A stretch of DNA of 64,000 bases from Acinetobacter sp. ANC 3781 (lineage in GTDB: Bacteria; Pseudomonadota; Gammaproteobacteria; Pseudomonadales; Moraxellaceae): positions 124,001 to 188,000 of the forward strand of contig NZ_SJOH01000002.1 in NCBI RefSeq assembly GCF_004331285.1, in the 5' to 3' direction. Positions 5,009 to 21,774 of this stretch are shown here, in pieces. The notes under the pieces were generated by a model. The model was not told where the DNA came from. It made no database searches and was given only the letters and a program-made list of their open reading frames with translations. The translations under genes and the position numbers were made by a program. Position 1 is the first letter of the stretch. Each line of letters starts with the position of its first letter.

Positions 5009-6667
5009 CTAAGACTCTATGCCGTCTTTGGTCATGCCTAATTTCTTGGCTGATTTATTAAACCTTTGTGCAGGCCAGGTCATGGTAAAACGCGCACCAC
5101 CCAAAACCGGGCTTTTATCCACATGAATATTACCGCCAAACCAGTAAGCAATACGGCTTACAATAGACAAACCTAAACCATAACCACCAGAAGCACGGGT
5201 TCGGCTGTCATCGAGACGTGCAAAAGCTTCAAAGATCCGCTTCCGCTCTTCCTCGGGAATACCTGCGCCATCATCTTCAACTTGCACATAAGCCAGACCC
5301 TCCTCGTTAATGCCACCACTCACAATTATCTTGTCATCACAGTAGCGAATCGCATTGCCAACTAGGTTTTGTACTACACGGTGCAAGTAACGGCGCTCTG
5401 CATCCACCACAACGCCAGGTTGCGCTACACGTAACTCAATTTCTTTTTGTGTTTTTAGCGCTTCAGTTTCAACCACCACTTGATCCAAGACTTCAAATAA
5501 GGTGATTTTTTCAAAATCTAACGAAGGTGTGCCCTGTTCAAGTTTTGCATAGGTCATGATTTCGTCAATCAAGGTGTTTAGCGCTTCAATATCCTTATCA
5601 ATCTGTTCAACCTGCTGCAAACGGTATTCATAATCATCTTCTTCTGCCAGCATTTCCATACCAAAACGGATACGTGCTACAGGCGTACGTAATTCATGCG
5701 AAACCGCGCGCATCAATTCACGCTGTGCTTCAATCAAACGCTGAATATGATCTGACATACTATTGTAATTCGTCGCCAGACTTGCCATTTCATCGGTACC
5801 ATCGATCGGTAAACGCAAGGTCATATCACCCGACTTCATTCGATGCAAGGCATAATTGACTTCACGCAAACGACGTTGCATCGGCACAAGCAGACCATAT
5901 ACCCCTAAACTCAACACAAATAAGCTAAGCAAGGTAATCCCAGCTGCAAGCTGAAAAGGCATCCAGTTAAATAACGGTACCGGACCCAGTACCAGCACCT
6001 CAGAAGGTGAACTTGGCATAGGGGAAACAATTGAAATTGTGGTTCCACGCACCGAGGCATTATCACGATATAAAATAATACTGTGATCTAATCGAAGTCG
6101 ACCTATCTGTTCGGAATCAAGTGGCAGGTTTTGAACTTTTTCAATTTGAATGGGATAGGAAAAATTCGATTGAATTTTTGCCAAATATTCTTTTTCTTGT
6201 CCTGGGTAATACACCAGATAATCCAGAATAAAAATGGGCAACGCTTTCATTTGGCGTTCACCAATTTTGTCTACTTTTATATAAAGCAAATGTTTTGGAT
6301 CATCTTTCAAGCCAATAATCACGTAAGCAATCGAGTTCTGTGCATCATAACGAACCGCAGCTTTGCGATCACTAATTCGCTTTTGCTCGGCACGCGATAA
6401 ATCAACTTTATTTGAATCTACATAATAAATGGGCAACTCAAGTAAATCTGAAGCATCAGAAACCCAGTCTTTTTTCTGTTGCTCATTCGGCTGTCGCGCG
6501 ATGCCTTCACTAATAATATAAGACACCCCATCGGTTAAAGACTCACGATATTCCTGCGCGCGCTGATAATTAATAATCTGAACCAGCAGGTAGCCAAATA
6601 CCGCCACCAAAGCGACTAAAATCACTAACCCCGCATAAATACGCAAGAATATACTGTGTTTAAACAA
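5009..6667 (-). CDS. bfmS: Sensor histidine kinase BfmS
   Basis: BfmS is the inner-membrane kinase partner of BfmR, the two-component system that in Acinetobacter baumannii controls pili, biofilm, capsule and envelope stress. The 552-residue protein has a membrane helix at about 9-31, a periplasmic sensor region to about 235, a second helix at about 238-262, a HAMP linker, the phospho-acceptor His324 in AVSHELRTPVARI, and a C-terminal ATPase domain with the glycine-rich DDGAGIPEEER and GYGLGLSIV boxes. It lies 31 bases after bfmR on the same strand. All catalytic motifs are present. The assignment rests on recalled similarity to BfmS and on the pairing. Confidence 0.92.
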   Translation of the reverse strand: MFKHSIFLRIYAGLVILVALVAVFGYLLVQIINYQRAQEYRESLTDGVSYIISEGIARQPNEQQKKDWVSDASDLLELPIYYVDSNKVDLSRAEQKRISDRKAAVRYDAQNSIAYVIIGLKDDPKHLLYIKVDKIGERQMKALPIFILDYLVYYPGQEKEYLAKIQSNFSYPIQIEKVQNLPLDSEQIGRLRLDHSIILYRDNASVRGTTISIVSPMPSSPSEVLVLGPVPLFNWMPFQLAAGITLLSLFVLSLGVYGLLVPMQRRLREVNYALHRMKSGDMTLRLPIDGTDEMASLATNYNSMSDHIQRLIEAQRELMRAVSHELRTPVARIRFGMEMLAEEDDYEYRLQQVEQIDKDIEALNTLIDEIMTYAKLEQGTPSLDFEKITLFEVLDQVVVETEALKTQKEIELRVAQPGVVVDAERRYLHRVVQNLVGNAIRYCDDKIIVSGGINEEGLAYVQVEDDGAGIPEEERKRIFEAFARLDDSRTRASGGYGLGLSIVSRIAYWFGGNIHVDKSPVLGGARFTMTWPAQRFNKSAKKLGMTKDGIES

Positions 6668-13044: not shown

Positions 13045-13653
13045 ATGAAAGGACAGATTCTAGATTATTCAATCCAAACCAATTCAGGCATTATTAGTGG
13101 TGATGACCAAAACCGTTACAATTTTACCGGTGCAGAATGGCGAGGACAACGTCCACCTACTCGTGGCGATCGTGTGGATTTTGATATCGACAGTACCACA
13201 GGGAATGCAACTCAAATTTTTACAGCATTGGGTCATAGCAATCCCGTGCAAAATATTTCCAATCAGTTAGACAAACTTTCCGATCAGAATAAAGCTGAAG
13301 AACAATTCAACATGATTGACTGGTTCGTAAAATGTTTAAAAAATTATGTCACCTTTGATGGGCGTGCACGACGTAAGGAATTTTGGTTCTTTATGCTCGT
13401 TTGTTTCATTTTAGGCATTATTGTACAAGTGATTGATGCGATATTAGGTACACACCAAACTCTAAATAGTTTATTAAATCTGGCCCTACTCCTGCCTAGC
13501 TTGGCTGTAGGTGCTCGTCGTTTACATGACACAAATCGATCAGGTTGGTGGCAACTTATTGTCCTAACGGTTATTGGCGTTATTCCACTGATTATCTGGT
13601 GGGCATCAGATACAAAAAGGGAAAACAACCAATGGGGACAACCTGCTAAATAA
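13045..13653 (+). CDS. Membrane protein with N-terminal OB-like domain and DUF805
   Basis: The 202-residue protein has two parts. Residues 1-60 (MKGQILDYSIQTNSG, RYNFTGAEW, GDRVDFDID) resemble a cold-shock/OB-type beta barrel. From about residue 85 comes DUF805: a WFVKCLKNYVTFDGRARRKEF entry motif followed by four hydrophobic segments and RRLHDTNRSGWWQL. The N-terminal domain is nearly repeated in the convergent gene at 13698-14111, which carries a TM2 domain instead. The function of such OB-DUF805 proteins is not known; the domain might sense nucleic acid or ligand at the membrane face, which is only inference. Confidence 0.85.
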   Translation: MKGQILDYSIQTNSGIISGDDQNRYNFTGAEWRGQRPPTRGDRVDFDIDSTTGNATQIFTALGHSNPVQNISNQLDKLSDQNKAEEQFNMIDWFVKCLKNYVTFDGRARRKEFWFFMLVCFILGIIVQVIDAILGTHQTLNSLLNLALLLPSLAVGARRLHDTNRSGWWQLIVLTVIGVIPLIIWWASDTKRENNQWGQPAK

Positions 13654-13697: not shown

Positions 13698-14111
13698 TTA
13701 GCCGTATTTGCGGGCAAAGTCTTCATCTGAGGTACACAAGTAAATAATGAACTCGATGAAAGCCACGATTGCCGGAATAAAGGTCCAGCAAAAAATCAGA
13801 TAAACAATTCCCCAGCCAATTTGCCCCAAATAAAATTTATGAATACCGAAGCCGCCGAGGAAAAAAGCCAAGATTGCTGCAATAATCCTGTTTTTATCGC
13901 CCACTTGCGTAGGAAATACTGACGGTGAACTAAGGATGTAAATGTCATTGGCCTGACCGGTTCCATCCACGCTAAAATCAATTTTTTGACCTCGGACAGG
14001 TGGAATTTGCCCACGCCACTGCGCCCCAGAAAACTGATAGCGGTTTTGATCATCACCACTGATCACTCCCGAATTGGTCTGAATGGAAAAATCCAATATT
14101 TGCCCTTTCAT
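13698..14111 (-). CDS. TM2-domain membrane protein with N-terminal OB-like domain
   Basis: The 137-residue protein starts with the same 60-residue OB-like domain as the gene facing it (MKGQILDFSIQTNSG, RYQFSGAQWRGQIPP), then has a TM2 domain: KNRIIAAILAFFLGGFGIHKFYLGQ, a turn, and a second helix ending in an acidic segment (CTSDEDFARKYG). TM2 proteins are small two-helix membrane proteins of unsettled role. The two genes converge on a shared terminator, forming a DNA inverted repeat of their 5' ends. A duplication of the OB-like segment with exchange of the membrane part is the simplest reading. Confidence 0.85.
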   Translation of the reverse strand: MKGQILDFSIQTNSGVISGDDQNRYQFSGAQWRGQIPPVRGQKIDFSVDGTGQANDIYILSSPSVFPTQVGDKNRIIAAILAFFLGGFGIHKFYLGQIGWGIVYLIFCWTFIPAIVAFIEFIIYLCTSDEDFARKYG

Positions 14112-14354: not shown

Positions 14355-15227
14355 TTATCGTAACTCGATTTGATTCATTTTTTCCAAACCCTGTACAGCA
14401 GCGGAAAAATCTAATTTACTGGCCTCATCTTTTTCAAAGTGGGTAAACTGTTCCTGAATCAATTGCATACTTGGAAGCTGCAATGACTCTTGCTGAATCA
14501 AATCGACTGCAATGCCAATATCTTTTTGCAACAAATCTAGAGCAAAGGTTTTATCAAAACTTCGACTGAGTACCCGCTGCCCCATAATATTTTCAGACAT
14601 ACTGCTTTTACCACTGGAATGATTAATACAGTTCAAAGCTGCCGATAAATCAACTCCCTTAGATTTCAATACAGTGAGACCTTCTGCCAACGCCCATAAG
14701 TGGGTGGCCATCAAGGTATTATTAATTGCTTTCACCGCAAAACCAGAACCGCTTTCGCCGACATATTCAATGAGACCTGAAAATGCAGCAATAATCGGTT
14801 TGGCTTTTTCAAAGGCAGCTACATCGCCACCAATCATCACGGTTAAGGTGCCTTTTTCAGCGCCGATGGTTTGACCTGAAACCGGTGCATCCAGATATTC
14901 CACCCCTATTTTTTTTAAGGCTTGATTTAACTGTTGTGCAGATTTTGGAACACCACTGGTGCAATCAATCCAGATACTGCCTGACTTGGGTGGATGCTCA
15001 GCAATCAACTGCTCCACATCCGCACTGGTCGGTAAACAAGAGAAAATAAAATCAGCTTGTACCGCCTTTTCTATATCCACAGATTGGGTTTGAAAGCTGA
15101 TTGAATGATGATCCGCCTTGGACTGGGTTCTGTTCCAGACCCAGACTTCATGTCCAAGTTTAGGAAGATGGGAAGCCATATGCCATCCCATTGCCCCGAG
15201 TCCAATAAATGCAATTGTCTGATTCAA
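14355..15227 (-). CDS. 3-hydroxyisobutyrate dehydrogenase-family oxidoreductase in the rut operon
   Basis: The 290-residue enzyme has the N-terminal Rossmann motif GLGAMGWHMASHL, the substrate-binding DAPVSGQTIGAEKGTLT segment, and the catalytic-lysine region GFAVKAINNTLMATHLWALAEG. Family members oxidise or reduce short beta-hydroxyacids with NAD(P). It is the last gene of the rut cluster, nine bases after rutG, where no rutE is found. The pathway ends in malonic semialdehyde, which RutE (a nitroreductase-type enzyme) reduces to 3-hydroxypropionate in E. coli; this enzyme is a good candidate to perform that step. Specificity is inferred, not shown. Confidence 0.85.
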   Translation of the reverse strand: MNQTIAFIGLGAMGWHMASHLPKLGHEVWVWNRTQSKADHHSISFQTQSVDIEKAVQADFIFSCLPTSADVEQLIAEHPPKSGSIWIDCTSGVPKSAQQLNQALKKIGVEYLDAPVSGQTIGAEKGTLTVMIGGDVAAFEKAKPIIAAFSGLIEYVGESGSGFAVKAINNTLMATHLWALAEGLTVLKSKGVDLSAALNCINHSSGKSSMSENIMGQRVLSRSFDKTFALDLLQKDIGIAVDLIQQESLQLPSMQLIQEQFTHFEKDEASKLDFSAAVQGLEKMNQIELR

Positions 15228-15236
15228 AATGAACTC

Positions 15237-16586
15237 CTATGGATGTGTGACTGATTCGGTATCTACCCTGGCTGGAACTGGACTGGTTGCATCTTCACCA
15301 CGATTCAAAAATAGATTCAGTACAATCGCCGCTAAAGTTGCAGTTCCAATCCCGCCTAAATCGAAGATGCCAATTTTCAAGCTAAAGTTACCCGCTCCCA
15401 TAATCAGGCTCACCGCAGCAATAATTAAAGTGCTGTTTTTGCTGAAATCGATTTTGTTATCAATCCAGATTTTTGCGCCGGCCACAGTAATCAAGCCAAA
15501 TACCATAATGGATGCACCACCCAACAATGCCACAGGAATGGTACTAATCACGGCACCAAATTTAGGGGACAAGCCGAGTAAAATCGCAAACAGACCTGCC
15601 ACAACAAAGATCGTCGTTGAATAAACTTTAGTGACGGCCATTACGCCAATATTTTCAGCATACGTGGTCATACCTGTACCGCCGACCGATGCAGACATTG
15701 AAGTACATATACCATCTGCAAAGAATGCACGTCCCATGTATGGATCAAGATTTTTGCCGGTCATGCCCGAAACTGCTTTAAAGTGACCCAGGTTTTCAGC
15801 CACTAAAATTAGTGCCACAGGTGCAATCAATAAAATGGCATTGGCGTTAAAAACAGGACTATGCAAAGTCGGCAAACCAATCCAGGCCGCGTCTGAAATA
15901 ATGCTAAAATTAATCGGTGTACCGAACCCCATGACATTGGTCATCAGGAAATAAATAAAATATGCAGCTACAAGACCGAGTAGAAGCAATAAACGTCGCA
16001 CCATCCCTCGCGTAAATACCGCCACTACGCTGATACAGATAATGGTGACCACTGCCATCCAGGTATCGAATGAACTAGCAGATACACTTTTAATGGTCAC
16101 TGGCGCGAGATTCAAACCAATGATCATGACAATTGCGCCCGTCACAATCGGTGGCATCAATTTTTCAATCCAGCGGGTACCGGTTTTCATAACAATCAAA
16201 CCAATACCGGCATAAATTAAACCACAGACCATAGTTCCGCCAAGTGCCAAGGCAATATTAGGATTAGACCCTGCACCGGCATAACCGGTTGCCGCGGCAA
16301 CTGCACCAATAAAAGCAAAGCTCGACCCCAGATAACTCGGCATGCGGCCACCGGTAATCAGGAAAAATAAAATGGTTCCGATACCGGTAATTAAAATGGT
16401 CAAGTTCGGATCAAAACCCATCAACAAAGGTGCAAGCACCGTTGCACCAAACATGGCAAAAGCGTGTTGCAGTCCTAAAACAATACTTTTCCCTGCAGGT
16501 AAATATTCATCTATTTGCACGGGTGTTGTATCTAAATTGCCTTGGTAAGGCTTAAATTCCGGAAACCACGATTCTTTTTTTTGCAT
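15237..16586 (-). CDS. rutG: Uracil permease (NCS2 family)
   Basis: RutG imports uracil across the inner membrane. The 449-residue protein has about 14 hydrophobic segments of the nucleobase:cation symporter-2 fold, an N-terminal LGLQHAFAMFGATVLAPLL helix and the NCS2 signature GTGMTTYAENIGVMAVTKVYS. The motif and length (E. coli RutG 442) fit uracil transporters better than the xanthine ones. It lies 33 bases downstream of rutF and nine bases upstream of the dehydrogenase gene, so it is within the operon. Confidence 0.92.
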   Translation of the reverse strand: MQKKESWFPEFKPYQGNLDTTPVQIDEYLPAGKSIVLGLQHAFAMFGATVLAPLLMGFDPNLTILITGIGTILFFLITGGRMPSYLGSSFAFIGAVAAATGYAGAGSNPNIALALGGTMVCGLIYAGIGLIVMKTGTRWIEKLMPPIVTGAIVMIIGLNLAPVTIKSVSASSFDTWMAVVTIICISVVAVFTRGMVRRLLLLLGLVAAYFIYFLMTNVMGFGTPINFSIISDAAWIGLPTLHSPVFNANAILLIAPVALILVAENLGHFKAVSGMTGKNLDPYMGRAFFADGICTSMSASVGGTGMTTYAENIGVMAVTKVYSTTIFVVAGLFAILLGLSPKFGAVISTIPVALLGGASIMVFGLITVAGAKIWIDNKIDFSKNSTLIIAAVSLIMGAGNFSLKIGIFDLGGIGTATLAAIVLNLFLNRGEDATSPVPARVDTESVTHP

Positions 16587-16619: not shown

Positions 16620-17207
16620 TTAGTTCATGGGTTGTGGCTCGCAATACGCACGATTGAAATACATCAATGCATTCATACCTTGATTTTGTTTCATGGCTTT
16701 GACCTGACAAATCAGTACATCGTGGCTACCAACCGACATGCTTTGCACTACTTCACAGTCAAACGAAATCAGTGCATCCTCTAAAACGGGTGCCTGTGTG
16801 AGCAATGTCGACCATTTTCCACGCAAGAATCGTTCCGACATGGGTGTTTTTCCACCAAAGATATTCGATAATTCAGCATGATGTGCAGCGAGAGTATTTA
16901 CGCAAAGCACCCGATTACATTTAAAGGTCTCAAATACCGATGCCGAGCGGTTTAAGCACACCAGTAAAGTCGGCGGTGAGTCGGTGACGCTACATACCGC
17001 GGAAGCGGTAAAACCGGCCTGACCCGCTGCACCATCTGTGGTAATCACATTGACGGCGGCGCCTAAATTAGACATACCCTGCCTAAAAGTCGCCTGATCA
17101 ATTTCTTGATGCGTTTCATGAGTCATCATCTGAAAATTTTGCGCATGTTGTACTAAATCTTTTGTCGATTGAACCGACATGATTTTGCTGTTCATCATCA
17201 TCTCCAT
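16620..17207 (-). CDS. rutF: Flavin reductase RutF
   Basis: RutF reduces FMN with NADH for the monooxygenase RutA. The conserved part begins at about residue 35 ([26 protein letters not shown]) and includes [23 protein letters not shown] and [13 protein letters not shown], closely matching E. coli RutF. The frame has about 30 extra N-terminal residues containing several methionines; translation may start at one of the internal ones. It lies 92 bases after rutC, the largest internal gap of the operon. Confidence 0.92.
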
Positions 17208-17299: not shown

Positions 17300-17680
17300 T
17301 TAAACATGCGCGATAGATGCAATTTCGACTAAAGCATCGGGTTTCACTAGGCCCGTTTGTACGCAGTAGCGTGCCGGTTTATCCCCTGGAAAATACTCCG
17401 CATATACAGTATTGATCGCAGTATAATCGGCCCAGTCTTTGACAAAGACATGATTAAAGGTCACGTCATCCATTGTCCCACCCGCAGTTTCAATGACTTT
17501 TTTGATGGTTTCTAAAATATGACGAGTTTGTGCAGCAGCATCGCCGATATGTACGACATTGTTATTTTCATCAAAGGCCAAAGTGCCCGAAACATAAACT
17601 ATATTGTCCGCTTTGGTGGCAGGAACATACGGTGCCAATGGTTTTCCTGTTCCTACGGGTAAAATAATTTCTTTTGGCAT
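17300..17680 (-). CDS. rutC: 3-aminoacrylate deaminase RutC (Rid/YjgF family)
   Basis: RutC hydrolyses 3-aminoacrylate to malonic semialdehyde and ammonia. The 126-residue protein shows the Rid-family pattern: [24 protein letters not shown] near the N terminus, the catalytic-site Arg in [14 protein letters not shown], and VEIASIAHV at the end. It is 20 bases downstream of rutB. Length equals the family norm (about 128). Confidence 0.93.
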
Positions 17681-17700: not shown

Positions 17701-18462
17701 TCAGGCTGATTTTTCTAAGATATGCGATTTAGATTGAAAGGTTTCGACAAAATTTACTGTGTCCGACACCCAACCAAAGAAAGTTTTAATGTTATATAAA
17801 CTGGCTGCATGCGCTTCAATCGGTCCTGCCTGATAACAGGCATCGTCTAGTGCAATACCAAAATACTCAAGGAAAAAGCCGTCTCTTAAAGTCGACTCGA
17901 CACAAACATTGGTGGCAATCCCGACAAAAACCAGATTCCGAATGCCTTTGCTGCGGAGCATGCTGTCCAAAGCGGTATTAAAGAAACCGCTATAACGGGA
18001 TTTTTCAATCACGATGTCTTGGGCCAAAGGTTTAAGTTCATCAATCAGCTCAAAATCCCAGCCGCCTTTTGCGAGTAATTTCCCTTGTAATTCAGGCTGC
18101 TTACGCATGGTTTTTAAGGCGTTGGATTTATGAAAATTCGGGGAATTGATACCACCCGCTTCCACATACTGATCATCCCAGCCATTTTTGAAATAAATCA
18201 CCTGAATGTTTGACGCATGCGCGGCATCGACTGCTTTTTTGATGTTCTCCACTACAGGTTTGGTTTTTGAAACATCAAAACCTGCCAAATCCAAATAGCC
18301 GCCTTTTGAGGTATAGGCATTTTGCATATCAATCACGATTAATGCTGTGTGCTCGGGTGCAAGTTGAATGGCTTCCGGTTCTGCCTTTAACACTTTTCCA
18401 GTAGCTGTGGCTTGGGTAAAGCCTGTACAGACCACATTTTCTACAGATTTATTCATATTCAT
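17701..18462 (-). CDS. rutB: Peroxyureidoacrylate/ureidoacrylate amidohydrolase RutB
   Basis: RutB cleaves the ring-opened product of RutA, releasing carbamate and 3-aminoacrylate. It is an isochorismatase-type hydrolase: the catalytic Asp lies in [19 protein letters not shown], the Lys in [15 protein letters not shown], and the Cys in [17 protein letters not shown]. Its ATG overlaps the rutA stop by four bases (ATGA), implying coupling. The 253-residue length is close to the family norm. The protein ends in LEKSA, the same five residues that end RutA. Confidence 0.94.
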
Positions 18463-19574
18463 GCTGACTTCTCCAAGACTGAAACTTGAGTTGCTTCACC
18501 TTCAACCACAATATGCTCACGGCATTTCATCAAAGGCTGAATTTTTTGGCCAAAATTTTCTACGCCTTGAATAAAATCATCAAAGGTTAAAAGAATGCCT
18601 TCAGTTCCTTCGATTTCAGCAATTTCATCCAGCATTTTTGCGACATTTTCAAAAGAACCGACAATGGTACCCATGTTGATATTGACGGGTGAAACACTGG
18701 ATGCCATTTGACGAATATTAGTATCTGCACCGGATTTGGTATCTTTACCGCCTTGGTTCATCAGCCAGTTAATCGCCTCAACATCTGCCCCATCGTTATA
18801 GCTTTGCCATTTTGCAAAAGCTTCTTCATCGGTCTCTGCCGCAATCACCATAAAAAGCACATAAGTTTGCACATCACGGCCGGTTTTATCGGTATGTGCC
18901 TTTAAGCGATCATTAATATCTGCATAAGCCTTGGGTGTATTTAGGCCTTTACCAAAGACAAAGTTGTAGTCTGCATATTTAGCGGAGAACTCCAGTCCCG
19001 TATCGGACTGCCCTGCACAGATGATTTTCATATCTGCTTGCGGAACTGGACTTACGCGGCAATCATCCATTTGGAAATGCTCGCCTTTAAAGTCCGATTG
19101 TCCTGTCGCCCAAAGCTCACGTAAAATTTCGACATATTCAGACAAATAGTCATAACGTTTGGCAAAGTATTCATCACCTGGCCACATGCCCATTTGTTTA
19201 TATTCAGGCGCTTGCCAACCGGTCACCACATTTAAACCAAAACGCCCATTGGAAATAGAATCAATAGTCGATGCCATACGTGCCACAATTGCAGGCGGCA
19301 TCACCAAAGTTGCCGCTGTGGCATAAATTTTAATTTTGCTGGTCACCGCAGCAAGACCCGCCATTAAGGTAAATGTTTCGAGATTATGATCCCAAAATTC
19401 GGTTTTCCCGCCAAAGCCACGTAGCTTGATCATCGAGAGGGCAAAGTCAAAACCATAATGTTCTGCACGTTGCACAATTTGCTTGTTCATTTCAAAACTA
19501 GGTTTATATTGCGGTGCATTTTCAGACAGCAACCAGCCATTATTTCCGATTGGACAAAAGACGCCTATTTTCAT
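18459..19574 (-). CDS. rutA: Pyrimidine monooxygenase RutA
   Basis: RutA is the flavin-dependent, luciferase-fold monooxygenase that opens the uracil ring between N3 and C4. Visible landmarks include [22 protein letters not shown] at the N terminus, [20 protein letters not shown], and [22 protein letters not shown] chose the ATG at 19574 because a GAGGTG ribosome site lies eight bases before it; an in-frame GTG at 19583 overlaps that site and is less likely. It is the first gene after a sigma-54 promoter at 19652-19666 and overlaps rutB by four bases. Confidence 0.95.
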
Positions 19575-19651
19575 TATTAACACCTCATTTTTACCATTTG
19601 GTTATAAATTTGCTTCAAGCAAGCCACTTGAACTTTTATAGTTAATATTTA

Positions 19652-19666
19652 GCAAATGCTGTGCCA
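19652..19666 (-). promoter_or_regulatory. Sigma-54 (-24/-12) promoter of rutA
   Basis: Read on the minus strand this is TGGCAC-AGCAT-TTGC followed by T, an exact match to the RpoN consensus TGGCACN5TTGCW with the required GG-to-GC spacing. It predicts a start near 19640 and a leader of about 66 bases before the rutA ATG. Nitrogen control through NtrC is known for E. coli rut. Confidence 0.88.
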
Positions 19667-19743
19667 ATTATATTTAATATATATTTTTCAATAATTTATA
19701 AAAATATTATTTTAACAAATAGTAAAATAAGCAATAAACCAGA

Positions 19744-19782
19744 TGCACTGTTATAGTAATAATGGCTCTAAAAAAATGCACA
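19744..19782 (-). promoter_or_regulatory. Possible NtrC half-sites upstream of the rutA promoter
   Basis: TGCACT-N5-AGTAAT at 19744 keeps nine of the 12 symmetric positions of the NtrC site, and a second TGCACA half-site starts 33 bases further out. Together they lie roughly 100-140 bases before the predicted start, the usual enhancer range. Each match alone is weak. Confidence 0.3.
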
Positions 19783-19842
19783 ATCCTTAAAAATCAGAAA
19801 TTCTGCGCCGATTAATCCCGAATTTTTATGAAAGAGTAAATT

Positions 19843-19875
19843 AAAAAAAACCGCGATCTTAAAAATCGCGGTTTG
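19843..19875 (-). terminator. Terminator after rutD
   Basis: AACCGCGAT/ATCGCGGTT with a short loop and, on the minus strand, a run of eight T. It lies 39 bases after the rutD stop and upstream of the rutA promoter, so rutD and rutA-G are separate transcripts. Confidence 0.88.
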
Positions 19876-19913
19876 ATAAAAAATTTACCGGTTATTGCTA
19901 TAAATAAGCCTGC

Positions 19914-20744
19914 TTAATTCGAGAATAAAACTACTTTTAAAAAATGATGGTGAAAAAATTGCAGCATGGTTTTGTTTAATAACTCTGGCTGTGCAACTGT
20001 AGATGCATGTGCCCCTGTAACAAGCACACTGAGTTGCCCATGACCGAGTCGCTGTTGTAGATCACTCGACTTGTGTACAGGAACCAAAAAGTCATCCTGA
20101 TTGGCAATGAAATGCAGTTGGCTATGCTGCAACGCTTGTATATGCTGATCATTGATTTTAAATTGCCGGGCAGTTTGAATCCGCTTCATTACATTTGGAG
20201 CCGGTGGGAAATCGTCAAGCTGAATATTTTCCAGCGTATTTAAATGCTGATAATTTTTTGAAATCCATGCTGGTGGGTACAAAAATAATCCCTGTGCTCG
20301 GACATAAGCTTCTGCACCTGCAGATTTTAATAAATGAACCCTGGCTTCAAAGCATTTTTGGGTATGCGGATCGATTTCATCCCATGAATTAATACAGGTT
20401 AAACTTAATAGTTTTATTTCAGATGACACTATTAATATAGCCAGTTCTGCACCAATAAATGCGCCAATCGCATGTCCAATAAAATGAAAACACTGAATTT
20501 TTTCTAATTTTATAATTTCCAGTAACTGCAATGCCAGGTTAGTAATTGCATACTTATGTGGAAGAAGAGCTGAATCGGCATGACAACCTTCCTGGTCATA
20601 AGTTAGAACATGAAAATGTTCTGTTAAAGCCGCAATTTGAGGTTTCCAGAAACTGGCATGACCACCCAAACCTGAAGATAAAATTAAATACTCAGCTGCT
20701 GAATTTCCTGTACATCGATGAATTTGATAGCTCATTTTTACCAT
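19914..20744 (-). CDS. rutD: Putative aminoacrylate hydrolase RutD (alpha/beta hydrolase)
   Basis: RutD helps remove 3-aminoacrylate during uracil breakdown. The 276-residue protein follows the family closely: LILSSGLGGHASFWKPQI (oxyanion loop), the nucleophile region HFIGHAIGAFIGAEL where Ala replaces the usual Ser of GxSxG as in E. coli RutD (GHALGA), SWDEIDPHTQKCFEAR, and TGAHAS at the C terminus. It lies upstream of rutA but is set apart by its own terminator and its own sigma-54 promoter. The ATG at 20735 is an alternative start; neither has a clear ribosome site. Confidence 0.88.
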   Translation of the reverse strand: MVKMSYQIHRCTGNSAAEYLILSSGLGGHASFWKPQIAALTEHFHVLTYDQEGCHADSALLPHKYAITNLALQLLEIIKLEKIQCFHFIGHAIGAFIGAELAILIVSSEIKLLSLTCINSWDEIDPHTQKCFEARVHLLKSAGAEAYVRAQGLFLYPPAWISKNYQHLNTLENIQLDDFPPAPNVMKRIQTARQFKINDQHIQALQHSQLHFIANQDDFLVPVHKSSDLQQRLGHGQLSVLVTGAHASTVAQPELLNKTMLQFFHHHFLKVVLFSN

Positions 20745-20771
20745 TCATTAAAATAAATTTAATAAGAAACA

Positions 20772-20786
20772 GCAAGAATTGTGCCT
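20772..20786 (-). promoter_or_regulatory. Sigma-54 (-24/-12) promoter of rutD
   Basis: On the minus strand the sequence is AGGCAC-AATTC-TTGC followed by T. It keeps the invariant GG and GC with exact spacing and differs from consensus only at the first base. The predicted start is near 20760, about 16 bases before the rutD ATG. Confidence 0.8.
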
Positions 20787-21177
20787 AAATAATCAAATAA
20801 ACTCAGTCTATCTCATCAATATCAAATCCCCGTTGCAGTGAAATATAGAGAATAAAATTTTATAAAAATAAGAAAAAGTAAAAATTTGAATCTAAAAAAT
20901 CGCCTAACAAGATTTACTTTCATACTCAAATCTACAACAAAAATAGCTAAACCCAAGTCAAACCAAAAACTTAAAATAGATGAATACAACAAAGACGAAT
21001 AAAATAAAAAATGTAAGAAAATAAGATGCTAAAACAAGCGTCAAAAAATCGATATGCAAGTTAATTGGAGTCAAATTTATAACAACCCCAAACACTCACT
21101 GTCTCGTAATAGAACAGTCAGTGCGCTAGAAATGGCAATCTCTTCCTACCTATATTTTTCTTGAAAGGTGATGGTTC
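20787..21177. other. A-rich intergenic region with one inverted repeat
   Basis: About 390 bases between divergent rutD and the gene at 21178. The plus strand is strongly A-rich and T-poor from about 20850 to 21060 and has no open frame with a ribosome site. At 21093-21123 the arms CACTCACTGT and ACAGTCAGTG (nine of ten pairs) flank an 11-base loop, 54 bases before the next gene. The region could also contain activator sites for the rutD promoter, but none is recognisable. Confidence 0.5.
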
Positions 21178-21774
21178 ATGGACATAGCAACTGAAGATCC
21201 ACTATTTCAATGTCACTATCTGCCGCGTTATTTTATTGGGCTGATCTTCATCCCTGCCCTATTTATTGTTTTAGCGCAGCACTCTCTTAGTAGCTTCAAT
21301 ATGGTTCAAGATTTTAGTAGTCTGATTCAGTATTTATTACATCAACCCCCGTCAGGTTGGTTATTAGTGACACTGATCATTCTGCTGGCCTGTATTGCCA
21401 TGAACATAAAACTTGTAGTTACCCGCCAAACTATATCCATACAAAATATGGGAATAAAACTTAACATCATGGTGCAGCGTAGCACCTTGTTTAAAGCTCA
21501 GCTTTATTCCTCACATGCCTCAAAGTATCGTGTGCTTAAGCCACTTACAACCAGGGCATTAGACCAAGAAAAATGGAAAACGAGTAGTATCGGCTTTATT
21601 TTAAAGCCAGAGTTTCGCAAACAATTTAAAATGGCACATATTGATCTGAATATGTTTAATGAAGATAACCGCAGAACACTGGTTAAGACTCTGGTACAAC
21701 ACTATTATTTAGACCCTAAAAAATTTTTAGATAGAAAACAACTTGCCAGAAGAAAACTACAGCATAAATTTTAA
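21178..21774 (+). CDS. Hypothetical membrane protein, 198 residues
   Basis: A GAAAGGTGATGG ribosome region precedes the ATG and a terminator follows the stop. The protein has two hydrophobic helices (about 17-38 and 60-80) separated by a short, probably periplasmic loop, followed by a basic cytoplasmic region of about 115 residues with several Lys/Arg-rich stretches (FLDRKQLARRKLQHKF at the end). I do not recognise a family; the plan resembles small PH-like membrane proteins, but that is only an impression. No partner is suggested by the neighbours. Confidence 0.7.
   Translation: MDIATEDPLFQCHYLPRYFIGLIFIPALFIVLAQHSLSSFNMVQDFSSLIQYLLHQPPSGWLLVTLIILLACIAMNIKLVVTRQTISIQNMGIKLNIMVQRSTLFKAQLYSSHASKYRVLKPLTTRALDQEKWKTSSIGFILKPEFRKQFKMAHIDLNMFNEDNRRTLVKTLVQHYYLDPKKFLDRKQLARRKLQHKF

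Follow-up and report, generated by a model that had tools for sequence, protein, structure and literature searches.

The rutD gene of Acinetobacter sp. ANC 3781 looks like a real, separately started unit with its own sigma-54 promoter element, as judged from the window (the whole stretch of 64,000 nucleotides analysed here) and from the rut loci of the genus. The reading considered most probable, at about three chances in four, is that this element is a functional sigma-54 promoter giving a transcript of rutD alone, that it is the remnant of a rutD-rutE unit, and that it is switched jointly with rutA by control of the NtrC/RutR type. The short rutD-only transcript would end at the terminator located before rutA, and its promoter would be what survives of the front of an older rutD-rutE unit, from which rutE later left the locus in the clade of the window. 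Under nitrogen limitation an enhancer-binding protein, most likely NtrC, would switch on the sigma-54 polymerase waiting at both rutD and rutA, and a RutR-like TetR repressor would probably keep both units repressed as long as pyrimidines are absent. Most likely the two would be switched together; their strength may differ, the -24 half of the rutD element being the poorer match.

The rut genes lie on the minus strand in the order rutD, terminator, rutA, rutB, rutC, rutF, rutG and finally a gene resembling 3-hydroxyisobutyrate dehydrogenase. The products of rutA, B, C, D, F and G each scored above the curated cut-off of their family; for the rutD product the profile search gave 287.2 bits with TIGR03611, against a cut-off of 238.5. 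The features of the locus are as follows.

20772-20786, minus strand: -24/-12 sigma-54 promoter element of rutD, AGGCACAATTCTTGC (pattern match)
19914-20744, minus strand: rutD, with its ATG at 20735 or 20744 (TIGR03611)
19848-19874, minus strand: intrinsic terminator after rutD (12 pairs, then a T-run, in the scan)
19652-19666, minus strand: -24/-12 sigma-54 promoter element of rutA, TGGCACAGCATTTGC (exact pattern match)
18459-19583, minus strand: rutA (TIGR03612)
17701-18462, minus strand: rutB (TIGR03614)
17300-17680, minus strand: rutC (TIGR03610)
16620-17207, minus strand: rutF (TIGR03615)
15237-16586, minus strand: rutG (TIGR03616)
14355-15227, minus strand: oxidoreductase resembling 3-hydroxyisobutyrate dehydrogenase, last gene of the rut operon (scoring below all listed family cut-offs)

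The initial annotation had proposed a second sigma-54 promoter in front of rutD, which would form a unit of its own closed by a terminator at 19843-19875. Both proposals held: the element with its GG-N10-GC core lies at 20772-20786, and the terminator was found at 19874-19848. Terminator-like sites occur somewhere between the rutD stop and the rutA start in 61 of 71 loci, which is a raw count without a chance control. The step of RutE may have passed to the oxidoreductase encoded after rutG; some genomes have both. Beyond the operon, at 13045-13653 (plus strand) and 13698-14111 (minus strand), two convergent genes code for products whose first approximately 60 residues are closely similar; both begin with MKGQILD and share SIQTNSG and ISGDDQNRY, as after a partial duplication.

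The rutD element differs from TGGCAC-N5-TTGC by one mismatch, A for T at -26, and retains the canonical -24/-12 spacing of GG-N10-GC. A T at -26 is common in sigma-54 promoters and is not known to be required. The distance from the element to the ATG at 20735 is 36 nt, and to the alternative in-frame ATG at 20744 it is 27 nt. If the last base of AGGCACAATTCTTGC is taken as -12, the transcript is predicted to start at about 20760, 25 nt 5' of the ATG at 20735. The sigma-54 motif TGGCACnnTTnTTGC, as given in an excerpt of PMC8743547, has the full TGGCA at -24, which the window element with its A at -26 does not reach. The genome itself encodes a single copy of RpoN (PF04552, 221.1 bits) and one NtrC above the cut-off. 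In the alignment, six of eight close relatives also conserve a separate stretch at 20905-20949, approximately 145-190 nt 5' of where rutD transcription is predicted to start.

Taken alone, the match of the rutD element in a single genome is weak. With up to two mismatches the pattern has 83 sites in the window against a shuffle mean of 74.8, i.e. no enrichment, and 18 of a nominal 100 shuffles reached at least 83 sites; in the whole genome, 327 sites with at most one mismatch compare with 139 for the reversed pattern. The comparison was extended to 175 Acinetobacter genomes, of which 73 have RutD (E ≤1e-40) and 72 have RutA (E ≤1e-100). According to the compared lists, all genomes with RutA also have RutD, and RutD without RutA is found only in G080. 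The rutD starts (n = 74, in 75 loci) comprise 73 genes and a decayed rutD remnant in G040, one of the two rutD copies of G159 being used. These two copies, each with rutA, lie near the contig ends (contig C1, 18317 and 3166867) and are probably an assembly overlap.

A GG-N10-GC element with no more than three mismatches overall was located 33-41 nt 5' of the rutD ATG in all 74 loci. By the same criteria, 37 of 7400 shuffles of the 150 nt upstream of rutD were positive, as was one of 384 other gene starts in the same loci, counted after rows with less than 40% identity or with less than 70 nt upstream in the locus had been dropped. The constancy of GG and GC is built into the search, which requires them; T at -15 and -14, which is not required, is present in 74/74 elements, A at -22 in 72/74 and C at -23 in 66/74. 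The defined positions average 1.69 bits, a value anchored on the element and inflated by the demand for GG and GC, while the 45 upstream columns average 0.28 bits and the 22 downstream columns 0.47 bits. In unanchored alignments of close relatives, too, the element stands out as a conserved block amid diverged flanks. The rows are phylogenetically related, and counts such as 74/74 are not independent trials, though in these rows the sequence on either side of the element has diverged. The element also persists without rutA-G (G080) and with rutDE on a separate contig (G014). In G040 (locus L115, about 5944-6078) rutD is decayed by stops and the genome has no RutA match, yet a -24/-12 element is still present. 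The question raised by the initial annotation, whether the element is conserved where the gene is kept, is thereby answered in the affirmative.

Two explanations would deprive the element of its role as the rutD promoter. Single matches of such quality are common in the genome and in the window, and a chance resemblance could be suspected from them; because the element is conserved across the genus at a nearly fixed distance from rutD, with the contrast to shuffles and control gene starts given above, a chance match is excluded for practical purposes. Alternatively, rutD might owe most of its transcription to a sigma-70 promoter or to read-through out of an upstream gene, the sigma-54 element being a relic. 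The nearest upstream ORF of at least 80 codons (mechanically defined ORFs) is co-directional in 37/74 loci, and in one clade it ends approximately 80 nt before rutD. Against this, the nearest upstream ORF is divergent in 25/74 loci, including the window, and was not found in 12, whereas the element is present in all 74. The scan for sigma-70-like sites gave none on the minus strand of 19500-21250, so that the window offers no such site before rutD on that strand, and three on the plus strand, below the 8.3 expected. Transcription of rutD chiefly by these routes therefore seems very improbable, if still less so than chance.

Alignments revealed a 16-bp palindrome near TTTACCANNTGGTAAA at both the rutD and the rutA promoter, and the corresponding RutR-like sites, together with a degenerate NtrC-box-like site and the RutR-like gene, are listed below.

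20737-20752, minus strand: RutR-like half operator, located after the predicted transcription start and before the rutD ATG (3 mismatches to TTTACCANNTGGTAAA, one half perfect)
19711-19726, minus strand: RutR-like box preceding the rutA promoter (2 mismatches)
19590-19605, minus strand: RutR-like box between the rutA promoter and the rutA start (2 mismatches)
19763-19779, minus strand: degenerate site resembling an NtrC box, near -139 of rutA (2 to 3 mismatches)
1486-2100 of locus L160: RutR-like TetR gene

By itself, the half operator at rutD in the window is a weak candidate; as a group, the RutR-like boxes are enriched near rutD and rutA. Between -60 and +30 of the rutD start site a box with at most two mismatches occurs in 16/74 loci (0.0 expected from shuffles) and with at most three in 49/74 (0.6 expected from shuffles); between -110 and +60 at rutA, a box with at most two mismatches occurs in 40/72 (0.25 expected), all three counts being based on a motif derived from these same rut loci. 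A second query, the RutR motif of E. coli, which is independent of the Acinetobacter loci, gave matches with at most three mismatches in 35/74 loci at rutD (0.25 expected) and 37/72 at rutA (0.2 expected). The position of the rutD box varies by clade, as it lies behind the start site, over it or at -44 to -56. Genome-wide, the RutR-like pattern is not enriched (40 sites versus 46 in the control). Since a RutR-like box is located near both promoters, joint control is favoured over independent control. The initial annotation had spoken of two independent promoters, from which it concluded that rutD dosage is set separately from rutA-G. The second element and the separate unit stand, but neither the independence nor the separate dosage, although the latter is possible, is supported in the form in which it was stated.

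The identity of the putative repressor can be indicated only as a RutR homologue. In the genome under study no protein exceeded the cut-off of the RutR family TIGR03613, the best match reaching 223.1 bits versus 368. The RutR-like gene is present in 168 of the 175 genomes, 95 of which are without RutD; its product must therefore have other targets, and the gene was rejected as a dedicated rut regulator. By analogy with E. coli, this homologue may nevertheless act as the repressor of both units. In one clade (L101 to L106, L135 and L152), this genus-wide RutR-like TetR gene, not the one of the deep branches, lies between rutD and rutA. In five of these eight loci the nucleosidase gene that neighbours the RutR-like gene in the window genome precedes rutD.

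NtrC boxes are less evenly distributed between the two promoters. An NtrC box (TGCAC-N7-GTGCA) with at most one mismatch was found at -130 to -150 of rutA in 19/72 loci, where 0.3 would be expected for the region -220 to -60. At rutD, boxes of this quality were found in 0/74 loci from -220 to -60, in 0/74 from -1200 to -40 as far as the locus reaches (2.9 expected), in 0/74 inside the rutD gene and nowhere in the 6.7 kb locus that carries the relocated rutDE in G014, and an NtrC enhancer of this quality at rutD was rejected for these regions. Relaxing the query to two mismatches gave 2/74 against 3.15 expected, the sites with two mismatches in a first scan being scattered over five rutD loci without a common place, and a looser motif gave 6/74 against 4.55 expected, no better than chance. 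A blind dyad search in 36 representatives from -260 to -28, i.e. ending before boxes that lie behind the start site, recovered TTAC-N6-GTAA and GCAC-N7-GTGC at rutA and nothing comparable upstream of rutD. The rutD promoter would be activated either through degenerate sites, or from the enhancer of rutA, or by another activator.

The last of these possibilities, a true sigma-54 promoter served by an enhancer-binding protein other than NtrC, would give rutD a signal different from that of rutA-G, and the notion that rutD is set separately would then be literally right. It is suggested by the uneven distribution of NtrC boxes just described and by a second NtrC-like protein in the genome (395 bits, below the cut-off). 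It is nevertheless unlikely, as no other strongly conserved dyad was present upstream of rutD in the 36 representatives, a RutR-like box accompanies both units, and among the named query genes in the compared layouts no regulator gene except the RutR-like one is linked to rutD. Similarly doubtful is the idea that both promoters share one enhancer, the rutD promoter lacking one of its own and being activated by NtrC bound before rutA, at a distance of approximately 0.9 to 2.3 kb downstream from the start of rutD (the two start sites are 1033 to 2462 nt apart in 71 loci). If this were the case, rutD and rutA would be switched by one piece of DNA despite their separate transcripts. The G014 locus, with rutDE separated from rutA and not a single box in 6.7 kb, speaks mildly against it, although the move may be recent. 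A further possibility, compatible with the preferred reading and deserving more weight than either of these, while still falling short of an even chance, is that both units obey the same signals and a weaker promoter keeps rutD below the level of rutA-G. The sigma-54 element of rutA was found in all 72 RutA genomes, and T occupies -26 in 72/72 of these elements versus 9/74 at rutD; C at -21 is present in 46/72 versus 16/74. In the 71 genomes compared pairwise, the rutD element has more mismatches than that of rutA in 51, as many in 18 and fewer in two, which hints at a different promoter strength. The -12 half, on the other hand, is better at rutD, with T at -15 in 74/74 versus 40/72 at rutA. 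These differences indicate a weaker -24 half and a better -12 half at rutD, and because of the latter a strength ranking of the two promoters cannot be read from the sequence.

A comparison of the rutD position across Acinetobacter, as the initial annotation had advised, showed that the whole genus has the split: among the 72 RutA genomes, 71 carry rutD upstream of rutA and in the same orientation. The exception is G014 (L108), in which a different contig from that of rutR-rutA holds rutD-rutE, followed immediately by a transposase-like ORF; its -24/-12 element is identical to that of the sister genome G137 (L140). At the rut locus, where its presence and loss were assessed, rutE follows rutD in 16/75 loci, on deep branches, and in none of the 52-row clade that holds the window, according to a midpoint-rooted RutA tree in which many forks are weak and for which the program warned of long branches meeting. 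The rutE labels of this tree follow an 80-bit line, below which the fragmentary rutE of L079 scored, and the deep-branch loci L110, L112, L114 and L134 are also without rutE. A RutR-type TetR gene stands before rutA in opposite orientation in 19 loci. The locus L159 (G181), which is below the RutD cut-off and has no rut genes found beside it, was excluded from the layout comparison. G080 (L065, 3095-5401) has lost rutA-G together with the oxidoreductase gene, and transposase-like ORFs, recognised by eye, occupy their place; still present are rutD with its element and the segment containing the rutA promoter. The pairwise divergence of this rutD from seven relatives is no different in range from that among the seven. 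Because transposase-like ORFs replace rutA-G, a recent deletion is the simpler explanation, and G080 was not accepted as proof of an independent role of RutD.

The lone rutD of the window is probably what remained of a rutD-rutE unit after rutE had left the locus. Loci L154 to L157 come from other families of the order; in them rutABCDE-F form one run on a single strand in which rutD is followed by rutE, as on the deep branches of Acinetobacter, but there rutD lies between rutC and rutE, unlike the Acinetobacter rutD outside the operon. Within 150 nt before rutD, three of these four loci have no element with at most three mismatches, and L154 has one match with three mismatches 100 nt from rutD. 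In L158, from another genus of the same family, a rutD-rutE pair stands outside rutABCFG, like that of the deep-branch Acinetobacter; it lies downstream of rutG, behind two ORFs judged by eye to be a semialdehyde dehydrogenase and a ribB-like gene, and no element with at most three mismatches occurs within 150 nt of rutD. The simplest history would be that rutDE left the operon early in the family, that it has a sigma-54 promoter in Acinetobacter and that rutE was lost from the locus later in the clade of the window. The rut operon of E. coli is an RpoN target (PMC8743547) and is described as NtrC-dependent and RutR-repressed (PMC10891134). The E. coli rutABCDEFG comprises the same pathway genes with a sigma-54 promoter before rutA, as in Acinetobacter, where NtrC-box-like and RutR-like sites near rutA and, on deep branches, a divergent rutR-like gene before rutA are further likenesses. 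Unlike in E. coli, rutD (or rutDE) of Acinetobacter is located upstream of and outside the operon and has a sigma-54 element to itself, to which a separate terminator is added in the window.

The initial annotation knew of no description of the split layout, and no account of it was found in the open-licence literature searched, though an earlier one in the primary pathway papers is possible. In an excerpt, PMC6563999 reports rut genes in one A. baumannii strain and makes no mention of the split; the term Acinetobacter is absent from PMC12316311, and the term rut from PMC12829801, which deals with NtrC in A. baumannii. According to PMC8113886, E. coli can do without RutD in the conditions that were tested, and the protein presumably accelerates a reaction that also proceeds spontaneously. 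That a separate sigma-54 element has been kept, even as the neighbours changed and rutE departed from the locus, suggests an importance of RutD in nature. The missing rutD enhancer would make this locus a handy case for the reach and direction of a sigma-54 enhancer serving a second promoter, and the separate unit of Acinetobacter would allow the role of RutD to be tested without polar effects on the other rut genes.
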